Positions 16,466-33,874 of a stretch of 33,874 nt of DNA are shown piece after piece. Numbering within the stretch: the stretch's first letter is position 1; each line of letters opens with the position of its first letter. Origin of the DNA: Gammaproteobacteria bacterium (GTDB lineage Bacteria > Pseudomonadota > Gammaproteobacteria > Methylococcales > Methylomonadaceae); the NCBI GenBank assembly GCA_016874115.1, contig VGVA01000011.1:1-33874 (forward strand), written 5' to 3'. A model generated the notes under the pieces. It had not been told where the DNA came from, made no database searches, and saw nothing but the letters and a program-made list of their open reading frames with translations. The position numbers and the translations under genes are program-made.

Positions 16466-17107
16466 TCAATTAATCAACGGCAAAATCGCCGTTAAATCAG
16501 CGTCTTCAACAAACGCATCCGCCAACTCACGCGTTACTTCACGGTCGCACACCCCGCCAAAGCCGATGACGGTTACACCGGGCTGTTTGGCTTCCATGTC
16601 GGTCTTGCCGTCGCCGATTAATGCCAAACTGTTGTTGCCGCCCAGCAATTGCTTGCAGATTTCGTGCTTGCCGCCCGAACGCGCCAGCGGCGCATTAATG
16701 TCATAACCGGCATAACTGCCATCTTCGTGAAAAAAAATATCAACCGCGTGGACGTGGTCTTCAGGCAAGCCGAGGTAAGCCGCCAGCGGCAAGATGGCTT
16801 GGCGCAGGCCACCGCTAATGATGTGGACTTCCTTGTCTTGCATTAATAAGGTGTCGAACACGGCTTTCGTGCCTTCGACGATTTCTGCAATATATAAGTC
16901 TGCAACCCAGTCAATTGCGGCTTTGTCCGGCTTGATGGTGTCCAGGCGTTTACCGTAAACAGCTTCGAGCGGTAATTCGCCGTTCATCGCCCTGTCGGTC
17001 AGTTTTGCCATTGCCTCGAAACAACCGGCGCGGCGCGCCAGTTCGTCGATGCCTTCAATTTTGCTCAAGGTGCTGTCGCAGTCGAAGCAGATGATGTCGT
17101 AGTTCAT
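16466..17107 (-). CDS. serB: Phosphoserine phosphatase
   Basis: SerB removes phosphate from phosphoserine, the last step of serine synthesis. The 213-residue HAD-family protein has FDCDST with nucleophile Asp9 and Asp11, a SGG motif in HIISGGLRQA, and GDGKTDMEA near the C-terminus. It is compact, lacking the N-terminal extension of E. coli SerB. It reads in the same direction as serA, which suggests a former serA-serB operon now split by the broken gene at 17263-18943. Confidence 0.93.
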   Translation of the reverse strand: MNYDIICFDCDSTLSKIEGIDELARRAGCFEAMAKLTDRAMNGELPLEAVYGKRLDTIKPDKAAIDWVADLYIAEIVEGTKAVFDTLLMQDKEVHIISGGLRQAILPLAAYLGLPEDHVHAVDIFFHEDGSYAGYDINAPLARSGGKHEICKQLLGGNNSLALIGDGKTDMEAKQPGVTVIGFGGVCDREVTRELADAFVEDADLTAILPLIN

Positions 17108-17154
17108 TGATTATGAGTTTTAAATTCCAAGCAGAATGTGCTGAACGAAGTGAA

Positions 17155-17227
17155 GCGCATCGTTCGCGTGAGGTTTTTCCTAGACCGATGCGCCTCGTGA
17201 TTCAAAACATCCTACAGTTGGCGCATC
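17155..17227. repeat. Inverted-repeat arms downstream of the DUF262 pseudogene
   Basis: GCGCATCG (17155-17162), CGATGCGC (17186-17193) and GGCGCATC (17220-17227) are related arms that can pair in two ways. The stretch 17108-17262 holds no gene. Such small palindromic elements are common between genes in this kind of genome, and this one lies at the boundary of the presumed insert. Confidence 0.5.
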
Positions 17228-17262
17228 TTACGAGTAGAAAACAGTTATTTCACCTCTACAAA

Positions 17263-18943
17263 TCATGAATAGGAAACTTTCCAAGTCTCAATCGCCTTTT
17301 CGGATAACCAAGTTTGGTAAGCGTTTAGGTTTTGTAAGTTCCATTGGCTATAAGTAGCAACTTTTCTCGCTAAAGGAAAATGACTTTCTAAGTATGCCTT
17401 TTGTTTAATTTCAAAATTAGCCCTTCGTAAATCATCCTTCTCAAGCAAAATCATATTACCTAAACGGTCTTGTATGTCATTCACTCCCTCGCCAAAATAG
17501 TCATCCCATTCTTCAGTAGGATTATAAGGACAGACGTGTTCCAAGGTAGTCGAATTGTGATCTGTTTTATTTCCTAAGTAAGCTTCAATTTCAGCCAATA
17601 AAAATCTAATTTTTTTGTGGATTGCCGACTGGGCATTTTATGAAATTCGAATGCATTAAAAAATTCTTCGTCATTTGGATATAGCCGTTTAAAAATTTCG
17701 CTATTTTTAACATGACTAGCCCGAGTCATTTCACTTGTATAAATCTTTATGGCAAGTTGATTATAGGCAGACTCTTGTTCATTAGGAGAATGATGACAAA
17801 TGACGTTGTAACGAATTGCAAGCACATAGAGGTATTCGATTAACTTAACAAATTCATCCGCAGAAAAATGATGAAATGCCGCCATTAACATCGTGAAAGG
17901 TTGCTTGATATTGAATAACTCAAATCCTTCTAAATACTTCCTCACACTTCTATAAATGACATCCTGACTGCCCCACCAATCATCATGTGGATTCAAAAGT
18001 GAAGCATAAACAGGTGCATAGTCACTTAAAGAACGAAGGTAAGAATAGGCTTTTTCTGGCGTATCAGCTAATTTTCTAACAGAAGCAAATAAGTCCTTCT
18101 TCGTTACTAAAGTGGCCTGAAAATTATGATGGTAGCGTATAAAGTCAGTGAAATTACTTTCACCAAGTTGTGAAACAATTTCTGACCAATTTTCGTCAAG
18201 CTCATTCAGATCATGGTCTGAAATCGTGTTGTTTTTAGTCACAACAGAAAAAATATAGTTTTTTAATAAATCGGGGGTAGAAAGCTGCACATCTCTTGCG
18301 TTTAAAGTCTCAAAAACTTTATAGGCATTAAGATCATCTTGTACAACTATCTTCGTAAAAACCATGCCAGAAGATACTTTTTCGATAAACTCAGCAATTT
18401 CTTTTCCATTGCTCCCAGTTTTTTTGGACTCAAAAAACTTAAAGCACTTGTTTAGTAATTTATTAGTATGAGTTTGACCTCTTTTATTTGGCGGTTCGAG
18501 ATCAGAACAGATTACCTTAAAATTGGTTCCGTTATTTCTATTTAAAGATAATTTACTATCTACTTTTAGTAAAATTGGGTTTTTAGAGCCAATATAACGC
18601 TCAGTCAACACTCTCAGTCTCTCTTTATTTTCACCTGCCTCTTCATTTTTCCAATTAAAAACTCGATGTTTTTCATAGCCGCGAGGACGACAATAGACAG
18701 TGTAATTAGTCTTTGCTGACCATCAATAATTTCAAAATCATGCTGGCTTTTACGTTGCAACACGATATATCCCATATAATGGTAATGCTCGTCTTTAAGG
18801 GTTTCTATATCAGCCCACAAATCTTCCCACTGCTCTTTATCCCACGCATAATCCCGTTGAAACCAAGGAACTTGGTATTTAACGCCATTTCCAATTAACT
18901 CTTGAAAGGTTTAGTTGGTAGGCTCCATTAACATGAATGTCAT
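17263..18943 (-). pseudogene. DUF262/DUF1524 (GmrSD-like) protein, broken by one stop and two frameshifts
   Basis: Repaired, the gene would give about 560 residues. It would start MTFMLMEPTN at 18943, with AGGA eight bases upstream. It continues with a TFQELIGNG-VPWFQRDYAW block, the DUF262 motif IIDGQQRL, and a C-terminal HNH-like DUF1524 region with TLEHVCPYNP and RLGNMILL. This layout is that of GmrSD-type restriction proteins that act on modified phage DNA. Three lesions are visible. There is a TAA at 18911-18913 after PTN. A missing base in the A-run at 18646-18650 breaks LIGK/NEEAGENKERL. Another missing base in the A-run at 17610-17616 breaks RQSTKK/IRFLLAEIEAYLG. The gene lacks the ATTAAT palindrome and looks acquired. 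Inactivity is inferred, since frameshift suppression or sequencing error could restore part of it. Confidence 0.85.
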
Positions 18944-19054
18944 AGATTATTCCTAAACATTAAATATTCGGTAAAGACGCTTAGACCTCTAGCAATCGAT
19001 AATATTACTTAAAGCCATATTCAACCTTATCCGCCAATTCTTGGTCTCCTACTC
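18944..19054. other. Intergenic stretch between serA and the pseudogene
   Basis: This 111-bp AT-rich stretch has no gene, no terminator hairpin and no ATTAAT. It probably marks the upstream boundary of the insert separating serA from serB. Confidence 0.5.
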
Positions 19055-20635
19055 TCACAAATTAATCTGCGTCGCCATTTTCACCGGAGTCAAATCGCGT
19101 ATTTGTTGCAGGATGTTGTCCGGCACGGGGTTGGGTACGCTGATAACCGCCATCGCCTGGTCTTTGACATCCGCCGTGCTGACTTGCATCCGCGTGATGT
19201 TGATGTTGGCATTGCCCAGCACGGAGCTGATTTGCGAGATAACGCCAGGGCGGTCGTCGTGGTGGGTGACGATGAGCGAGCCTTCCGGCACGGCTTCAAT
19301 GTCGAAGTGGTTAATGCTGACCAAACGTGGACGGCGACCACCCAGCAGTGCGCCGGATAAGGCGAATTTTTGGTCGCCGCATTGGCCGGTCACTTTGATT
19401 AATGAAACGTAGTCGGTAGACTCTTTACACACCGACTCCACCAGCCCAATGCCTTGGCGTTTGGCGATGTTTTCGGCATTGACGCGGTTGACGGGGGTAT
19501 CAAACTGCGCGCCCAGGACACCGACTAAGGCGGAAACGGACACGGGACGCACCGCCGCTTCCGCGGCTTTGCCGTAGAGCGCGACTTCGACTTGGGTGAT
19601 CGGCTTGGTGGCAAGGCCAGCCAGGATTTTGCCTAAAGCAGTCGCCAAGTTCATGAAATCGACCGATTTGCTCAAATCTTCTGCTGATACCCGCGGCAAG
19701 TTGAGCGCATTGACCGCTTCGCCTGTCTTCAAAAATAACACCGCTTGGCGGGCGATTTCCACGCTGACTGCCACCTGTGCTTCTGTGGTGGATGCGCCTA
19801 AGTGCGGGGTGAACACGATGTTGTCGAGTTCCAACAAGGGCGAATCTTTGGGTGGTTCGTTTTCAAACACGTCCAAGGCCGCACCCGCACATTGGCCGGA
19901 CTTTAAGGCTTCGTATAAGGCCGCTTCGTCTATCAAACCACCACGGGCGCAGTTGATGATGCGCGCACCTTTTTTCAATTTGGCAAGACGCTCGGCATTC
20001 AGGATGTTTTTGGTTTTTTCGATCAGCGGGCAGTGCAAGGTAATGTAGTCGGAGCGGGCGATCAAATCGTCCAATTCCACTGATTCTACTCCGTATTCCT
20101 GATAGATTTCCGGCGCGACGAATGGATCATAAGCAATGACATTCATCTTCAAACCGTGACCACGGGTGGACGCAATGCGGCCAATCGTGCCGAAGCCGAT
20201 GATGCCCAAGGTTTTGTGGGCAATTTCGACACCGACCAGCGAACGCTCCCACTTGCCTGCTTTAACCGAACGGTCGGCGGCAGGCAGGCGGCGGCTTAAC
20301 GACATCATGTGGGCAATCGCCAATTCCGCCGTGGTGGTGGCGTTGGCATCCGGCGTGTTCATCACGATTACGCCCATTTCGGTCGCCGCTGGAATATCGA
20401 CGTTATCCACGCCGATCCCGGCGCGACCGATCAGCTTCAGGTTTTTAGCAGCTTCCAGCACTTTTTTTGTCACTTTGGTGTCGCTGCGGATTAATAAGGC
20501 ATCGTATTCGCCGATGATTTCACACAAACCAGCTTCATCCAGCCCGGTTTGTACGTGGATTTTGATGCCGTCTTGCTCATTAAGATAGTTGATGCCCGCT
20601 TCGGAAAGCTTGTCGGAAATAAGGATTTTTTTCAT
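19055..20635 (-). CDS. serA: D-3-phosphoglycerate dehydrogenase
   Basis: SerA oxidises 3-phosphoglycerate with NAD+, the first committed step of serine synthesis. The 526-residue long form has an N-terminal catalytic domain, a Rossmann NAD-binding domain with GFGTIGRIAS, the GRAGIGVDNVDIPAA block and the catalytic histidine in FTPHLGASTTEA. It also has an intervening ASB domain (about 320-445) and a C-terminal ACT domain (VPEGSLIVTHHDDRPGVISQI onward). The ACT domain often gives serine feedback control, though not in all long forms. It is divergent from the TlpA-like gene, with 90 bp between them. Confidence 0.97.
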   Translation of the reverse strand: MKKILISDKLSEAGINYLNEQDGIKIHVQTGLDEAGLCEIIGEYDALLIRSDTKVTKKVLEAAKNLKLIGRAGIGVDNVDIPAATEMGVIVMNTPDANATTTAELAIAHMMSLSRRLPAADRSVKAGKWERSLVGVEIAHKTLGIIGFGTIGRIASTRGHGLKMNVIAYDPFVAPEIYQEYGVESVELDDLIARSDYITLHCPLIEKTKNILNAERLAKLKKGARIINCARGGLIDEAALYEALKSGQCAGAALDVFENEPPKDSPLLELDNIVFTPHLGASTTEAQVAVSVEIARQAVLFLKTGEAVNALNLPRVSAEDLSKSVDFMNLATALGKILAGLATKPITQVEVALYGKAAEAAVRPVSVSALVGVLGAQFDTPVNRVNAENIAKRQGIGLVESVCKESTDYVSLIKVTGQCGDQKFALSGALLGGRRPRLVSINHFDIEAVPEGSLIVTHHDDRPGVISQISSVLGNANINITRMQVSTADVKDQAMAVISVPNPVPDNILQQIRDLTPVKMATQINL

Positions 20636-33459: not shown

Positions 33460-33546
33460 GCTCGCGGGGCACTAGCGGGGCAATCCTAAATAAATCAACA
33501 CAACAATTCACAGTAAATAAGGCCGTTTTCTAAGCAAATTTGAGCC

Positions 33547-33874
33547 TGATCTTGCCTGGATTTCACGGACACTCCACTAAGCGACTTTTTGGGCTTCAAA
33601 CGCTTCTGGGCTGAGATAGCCCGGTCTTGAATGGAGCCGTTTGCGATTGTAATACACTTCGATATATTCGAACACCTGATGCTTGGCATCGGAACGAGTC
33701 TTAAAGCGTTCGCCATGAATAGCTTCGACCTTGAAGCTGTGGTTCCAGCTTTCCATGGCGGCATTGTCATAACAATCGCCCTTCTTGCTCATACTGCAAA
33801 CCAGCCGGTGTTTTCTGAATAGCTTCTGGTAGGCGGCTGAACAATATTGGCTACCCCGGTCAGAATGCACTATC
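33547..33874 (-). mobile_element. IS3-family insertion sequence, right end (partial)
   Basis: The transposase frame at 33577 is followed on the minus strand by a non-coding tail whose tip I place at 33547. There the sequence reads TGATCTTGCCTGG on the plus strand (ending CA on the minus strand), as IS3-family ends do. The other end and any target duplication are outside the window. Between the tRNA terminator and this tip (33460-33546) I see no gene, only a doubled GCGGGGCA. Confidence 0.65.
33577..33874 (-). CDS. IS3-family transposase OrfB, C-terminal part (cut by window edge)
   Basis: The C-terminal ~98 residues of an rve-type DDE transposase. VHSDRGSQY holds the second catalytic Asp, and NAAMESW, 35 residues on, holds the catalytic Glu. 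YYNRKRLHSRPGYLSPEAFE near the end is typical of IS3 OrfB. The frame stays open to the right edge, so its start is outside the window. No ATTAAT occurs in it, in keeping with recent arrival. Confidence 0.93.
   Translation of the reverse strand, partial: IVHSDRGSQYCSAAYQKLFRKHRLVCSMSKKGDCYDNAAMESWNHSFKVEAIHGERFKTRSDAKHQVFEYIEVYYNRKRLHSRPGYLSPEAFEAQKVA

Follow-up and report, generated by a model that had tools for sequence, protein, structure and literature searches.

The question raised by this locus is what has become of a restriction-type gene whose reading frame is broken three times: whether it is decaying, is switched or recoded by slippage at runs of A, or is merely misread in a draft assembly. 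The gene lies in the window, the whole stretch of 33,874 nucleotides analysed here, which comes from a Methylomonadaceae draft genome of 2.48 Mb (212 contigs, 93.9% complete). It is very probably a horizontally acquired, stand-alone restriction gene of the GmrSD type (type IV, modification-dependent) that was inactivated recently.

The membership in a GmrSD-like family, which the original prediction had read from the letters, was right. Both domains, PF03235 (GmrSD_N, DUF262) followed by PF07510 (GmrSD_C, DUF1524), score above their curated cut-offs when the three open pieces are taken jointly, and in two intact relatives both are found within one chain. PF03235 is divided between two pieces (E=1.4e-23 and 6.9e-10, profile positions 3-77 and 117-199 of 199) and is in frame down to about 18652. 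The pieces carry the motifs FQR, IIDGQQR and FETLN, and the nuclease motif (E/D)H..N..N was read by eye in the third piece as LEH, LGN and RANF..K, with the motif definitions taken from the excerpted text of PMC4619093 and PMC11411939. The single-chain type IV enzymes GmrSD and Eco94GmrSD have in common with the window gene the DUF262-then-DUF1524 order and the QR, DGQQR, FxxxN and H..N motifs, but they are encoded by one open frame, whereas the window copy is not.

The closest described type is HEC-06 (PADLOC PDLC04154, a profile that carries no curated cut-off), the top profile for the middle piece and for the two intact relatives. These two relatives score 699 and 700 bits across residues 3-558 of 560, and the middle piece of the window gene scores 399 bits. 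In the excerpted text of PMC11411939, HEC-06 is a GmrSD-like protein that lies within Hma clusters and works independently, its DUF262 part likely sensing modified DNA and controlling the DUF1524 nuclease via nucleotide hydrolysis. The window copy is broken, and its immediate neighbours are serA and serB. The only solved chain with E up to 0.01 for an intact relative is chain B of PDB 9jfl, a DUF262 domain-containing protein; this is a distant likeness (residues 6-308, E=1.9e-12) that spans about the N-terminal half.

The features of the locus are collected in Table 1. The window copy lacks the single uninterrupted coding frame of the single-chain form, being divided by a TAA codon, which is a substitution and lies within no run, and by two frame changes, at each of which it is one base shorter than all 13 aligned relatives. 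The second change is pinned to the A7 run or to the base preceding it, and the first falls in a variable stretch where the exact base is not resolvable, the A5 run probably being the likeliest place. The original prediction had placed one-base losses in both A-runs, the second of them a slippery A_AAA_AAA heptamer. Both losses and the in-frame heptamer are confirmed, as is a position at or beside the A7 run for the second, and the A5 run stands as the likeliest site only. The further claim that a -1 slip would correct both is true of one-base losses and merely restates that both are losses. Judged from these letters, the window gene is a pseudogene of the GmrSD family and not a working member.

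Table 1. Features of the broken gene and of the adjoining genes, in window positions.
Feature	Position	Strand	Remarks
GmrSD (DUF262+DUF1524) gene, predicted pseudogene, HEC-06-like	17263..18943	-	start ATG at 18943, terminal TGA ending at 17263; one in-frame stop, two frame changes
In-frame TAA, codon 11	18911..18913	-	sense codon in 13/13 aligned relatives
First open piece, after the stop	18624..18910	-	N-terminal part of GmrSD_N with QR and DGQQR; PF03235 E=1.4e-23
A5 run; first frame change most likely here or next to it	18646..18650	-	variable stretch in the alignment
Second open piece	17577..18647	-	remaining part of GmrSD_N with the FxxxN motif, and middle part
A7 run at the second frame change; in-frame A_AAA_AAA heptamer	17610..17616	-	placed by alignment with relatives
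Third open piece	17266..17616	-	GmrSD_C (DUF1524), H and N residues kept; PF07510 E=2.5e-15
serA	19055..20635	-	upstream neighbour, open
serB	16466..17107	-	downstream neighbour, open; ATGA overlap with serA in relatives
serA-serB gap	17108..19054	.	1,947 bases; missing in 4/4 other same-genus genomes with serB

The relatives against which the gene was read come from a scan of a genome collection. Seventeen related loci were found, and 15 of these are open over the whole gene, about 560 codons, in a count that excludes loci L004-L007, L009 and L010 (five of these share contigs with counted loci, L009 does not); the two that are not open over the whole length are L027, which is interrupted, and L039, which is partial at 270 codons. 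When 151 genomes of the family were searched with an E cut-off of 1e-10, the middle piece had a match in 21, the window's own included. The alignment holds 13 of the 17 loci (L035, L036, L037 and L039 are left out), and motifs and substitutions were compared with 12 relatives, the interrupted L027 also being left out, over 559 of 584 columns. In the middle piece, the window protein and that of its nearest relative are 85-86% identical. At the second shift site, 10 of the 13 aligned relatives have 7 or 8 A and read them unshifted as Lys-Lys-Ile, and an AAG interrupts the run in three.

A first alternative is that the real gene is intact and that the draft, assembled into 212 contigs, is in error at homopolymers, as the position of two of the three lesions at or near A-runs could suggest. 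The TAA, being a substitution away from any run, does not fit this, and the other A/T runs of at least 7 that start in listed window genes all lie in open frames (14 of 14, one of them within the GmrSD gene itself), so the intact long runs in neighbouring genes to which the original prediction had pointed were found again. Sequencing error is unlikely as the cause of the lesions because a frameshift or inner stop is seen in none of the 15 window genes that have a comparable match in the same genus, and the chance that the gene is in fact whole must be rated as small. These 15 belong to a background comparison of 53 matches at 60% identity or more (41,985 bases), drawn from 354 non-overlapping ATG frames compared in one direction between 400 kb of one same-genus genome and 340 kb of this genome plus the window; the GmrSD gene falls outside it, since no relative of this gene occurs in the same-genus genome used. 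Two candidate lesions appeared in this background, both outside the window: a pair resembling fhcD and fhcC by eye (L054) and a partial match of 50 residues (L048). An earlier background run, made with stop-to-stop frames that include antisense shadows, had given 14 and 16 unsorted matches with stops. The fhcD- and fhcC-like sequence (L054:2512-4345, named by eye) is one frame in the same-genus genome and two frames here, with repeat-like sequence between them.

Runs of A within a defence gene may also be taken as a switch, so that slippage would toggle the gene within a population, and the length of the run at the second site does vary among relatives (7 against 8 A). However, all 10 relatives with 7 or 8 A stay in frame at the run, both runs of the window copy would have to switch, and the TAA lies in neither. 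Tracts of 5 and 7 bases are also short for phase-variable tracts. Phase variation is thus most improbable here.

Recoding would require more, namely -1 ribosomal (or transcriptional) slippage at both runs together with read-through of the stop or an unusual start, yielding a low level of full-length enzyme. The second site offers the in-frame A_AAA_AAA heptamer; the first reads GGA AAA ATG, which is not an X_XXZ_ZZN heptamer but has an A_AAA tetramer inside. Such a tetramer is a weaker kind of shift motif. An ATT, a rare start, is present between the TAA and the QR motif, where ATG, GTG and TTG are all missing from the frame. Sites of the A_AAA_AAA kind do have precedent, since an insertion-sequence cluster with this heptamer is among the proven frameshift cases in the excerpted text of PMC4066793, and prokaryotic shift sites are not always accompanied by structures according to the same excerpt. 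In the window, the 90-base stretches downstream of the runs are no more stably folded than their shuffles (z 0.09 for the second, -0.52 for the first). That excerpt also names five Shine-Dalgarno-like words as proven stimulators, and none of them was seen by eye in the 24 bases upstream of the second run. Insertions during transcription increase with the length of A/T runs in E. coli and Buchnera (PMC5574713, excerpted text). The relatives read the second run as ordinary codons, broken by AAG in three of 13, and none of the 13 has the two-frame layout, 15 of the 17 loci being a single open frame. Programmed -1 frameshifting was rejected on the downstream folds and the single-frame relatives. 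The A7 run may slip at a trace level, yet this cannot remove the stop, and production of the enzyme by recoding is extremely improbable.

Because the A7 run is read as Lys-Lys-Ile in the relatives, the slippery heptamer is best seen as a by-product of conserved amino acids. This carries a caution: where Lys-Lys codons make an A-run, a frameshift can be expected to coincide with a slippery heptamer in frame, and the heptamer alone is not evidence of recoding. Genes of Blochmannia with frameshifts at homopolymers (PMC3017870, excerpted text) share with the window gene the A-run frameshift in an otherwise recognisable gene; in the former the rest of the gene is in frame and slippage could restore it, whereas the window gene adds a nonsense codon and a second shift. 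A related thought is that the allele might be a reversible or leaky 'off' state, in which run slippage and a non-standard start past the TAA would give traces of enzyme. If true, this state would keep a costly restriction gene at a low level behind a housekeeping gene, but we give the idea hardly any credence.

The preferred reading, decay of an acquired gene, is informed by the history of the site. Of the eight genomes of the genus, five have serB, the window's own included, and in each of the other four an ATGA, an overlap of 4 bases, forms the end of serA and the start of serB. Since the two genes overlap elsewhere and lie 1,947 bases apart here, the GmrSD-type gene is, on this comparison, a late insertion between them. 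Searches of the genome with the two Pfam domains and with the DNA of the gene turned up no second copy. In the unrooted codon tree, which carries no support values, the window copy adjoins L031, from the record of Crenothrix polyspora CP2, and not L023 of the same genus, and this fits horizontal movement. The 12 proteins encoded next to the gene in the window have no match at 17 loci of relatives, here L023-L038 and L009, within flanks of up to 4 kb, shorter in some. A mobile element was considered as carrier of the gene and gained no support from the searches for repeats, second matches and viral contigs: among the repeats shown for 17000-19150 there were only short imperfect ones, stretch 17100-17265 recurs in the genome as a single weak match of 36 bases (83% identity), and no relative came up when viral contigs were scanned once using L031-derived patterns. 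Transposase-like frames (by eye) lie at the end of the contig, at window 33495-33870.

A gene released from selection might also be expected to show it in its substitutions. Where the 12 other rows all agree, in 264 columns, the window copy carries 7 private changes, compared with 1 of 258 in L031, 0-5 in eight rows, and 8, 16 and 21 in the three most distant rows. Such counts rise with branch length, and a close sister in the set reduces them: the branch of the window is 1.13, that of L029, with 5 private changes, is 0.96, and that of L031 is 0.40. Two of the private residues lie by motifs and differ from all 12 rows, one in column 27 beside QR and one in column 218 just after FxxxN. Nine of the 11 remaining rows served for a comparison of non-synonymous distance, and in 9 of 9 the window is farther away than L031, although these comparisons have branches in common. 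At synonymous sites the differences are saturated (pS 0.77-0.87 in pairs with the window), which precludes a dN/dS value for the window branch. Given this saturation and the effect of branch length, neither the private changes nor dN demonstrate relaxed selection on substitutions, and the private changes hint only weakly at decay.

In favour of decay are three disabling lesions set against 13 of 13 aligned relatives and the empty serA-serB site in 4 of 4 genomes; against it stand the middle piece, still 85-86% identical to that of the nearest relative, and the retention of the catalytic residues. The original prediction had rightly leaned towards decay, and the alternatives that it had left open are now weakened. 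The probable course of events would have been as follows: a GmrSD-family gene from outside landed between serA and serB and split the overlapping pair, selection for keeping it lapsed, and it then acquired a nonsense mutation and two single-base deletions, at least one of the deletions at an A-run prone to slippage and perhaps by slippage. By analogy with its family, an intact copy would use its DUF262 part to recognise modified phage DNA and its DUF1524 part to cut it, and the present allele should give a peptide of 10 residues or inactive fragments. What emerges looks like a known kind of restriction gene in the state of a recent pseudogene, a matter of ordinary gene decay and not of hidden regulation. 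It is a clear example of how a solo restriction gene was gained and then decayed in methanotroph-type bacteria, complete with the unoccupied site in other genomes and a separate loss of the gene in a related lineage.

This other loss concerns Crenothrix polyspora CP1, in which an insert of 117 bp (L027:4144-4260), with inverted ends by eye and an in-frame TGA, breaks a related GmrSD gene. The CP1 gene was thus lost independently of the window gene. The insert has 19 matches in the CP1 genome, that in L027 included, at 89-100% identity, and no match in either the genome presumed to be CP2 or that presumed to be the source of the window; it looks like a MITE.

The related genes at L023-L038 mostly lie close behind varied, often housekeeping-looking genes (names by eye). 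The nearest frames are co-directional upstream at 14 of the 15 loci with such a frame and downstream at 11 of 15, as counted from mechanical frame calls, with no null model, and with two pairs of loci sharing a context. Full-length relatives also occur on plasmids: three Salmonella enterica plasmid records (among them NZ_CP033346.1) hold one that is 62.5% identical and annotated as a DUF262 protein, and the remaining 184 matching plasmid records are less than 60% identical.
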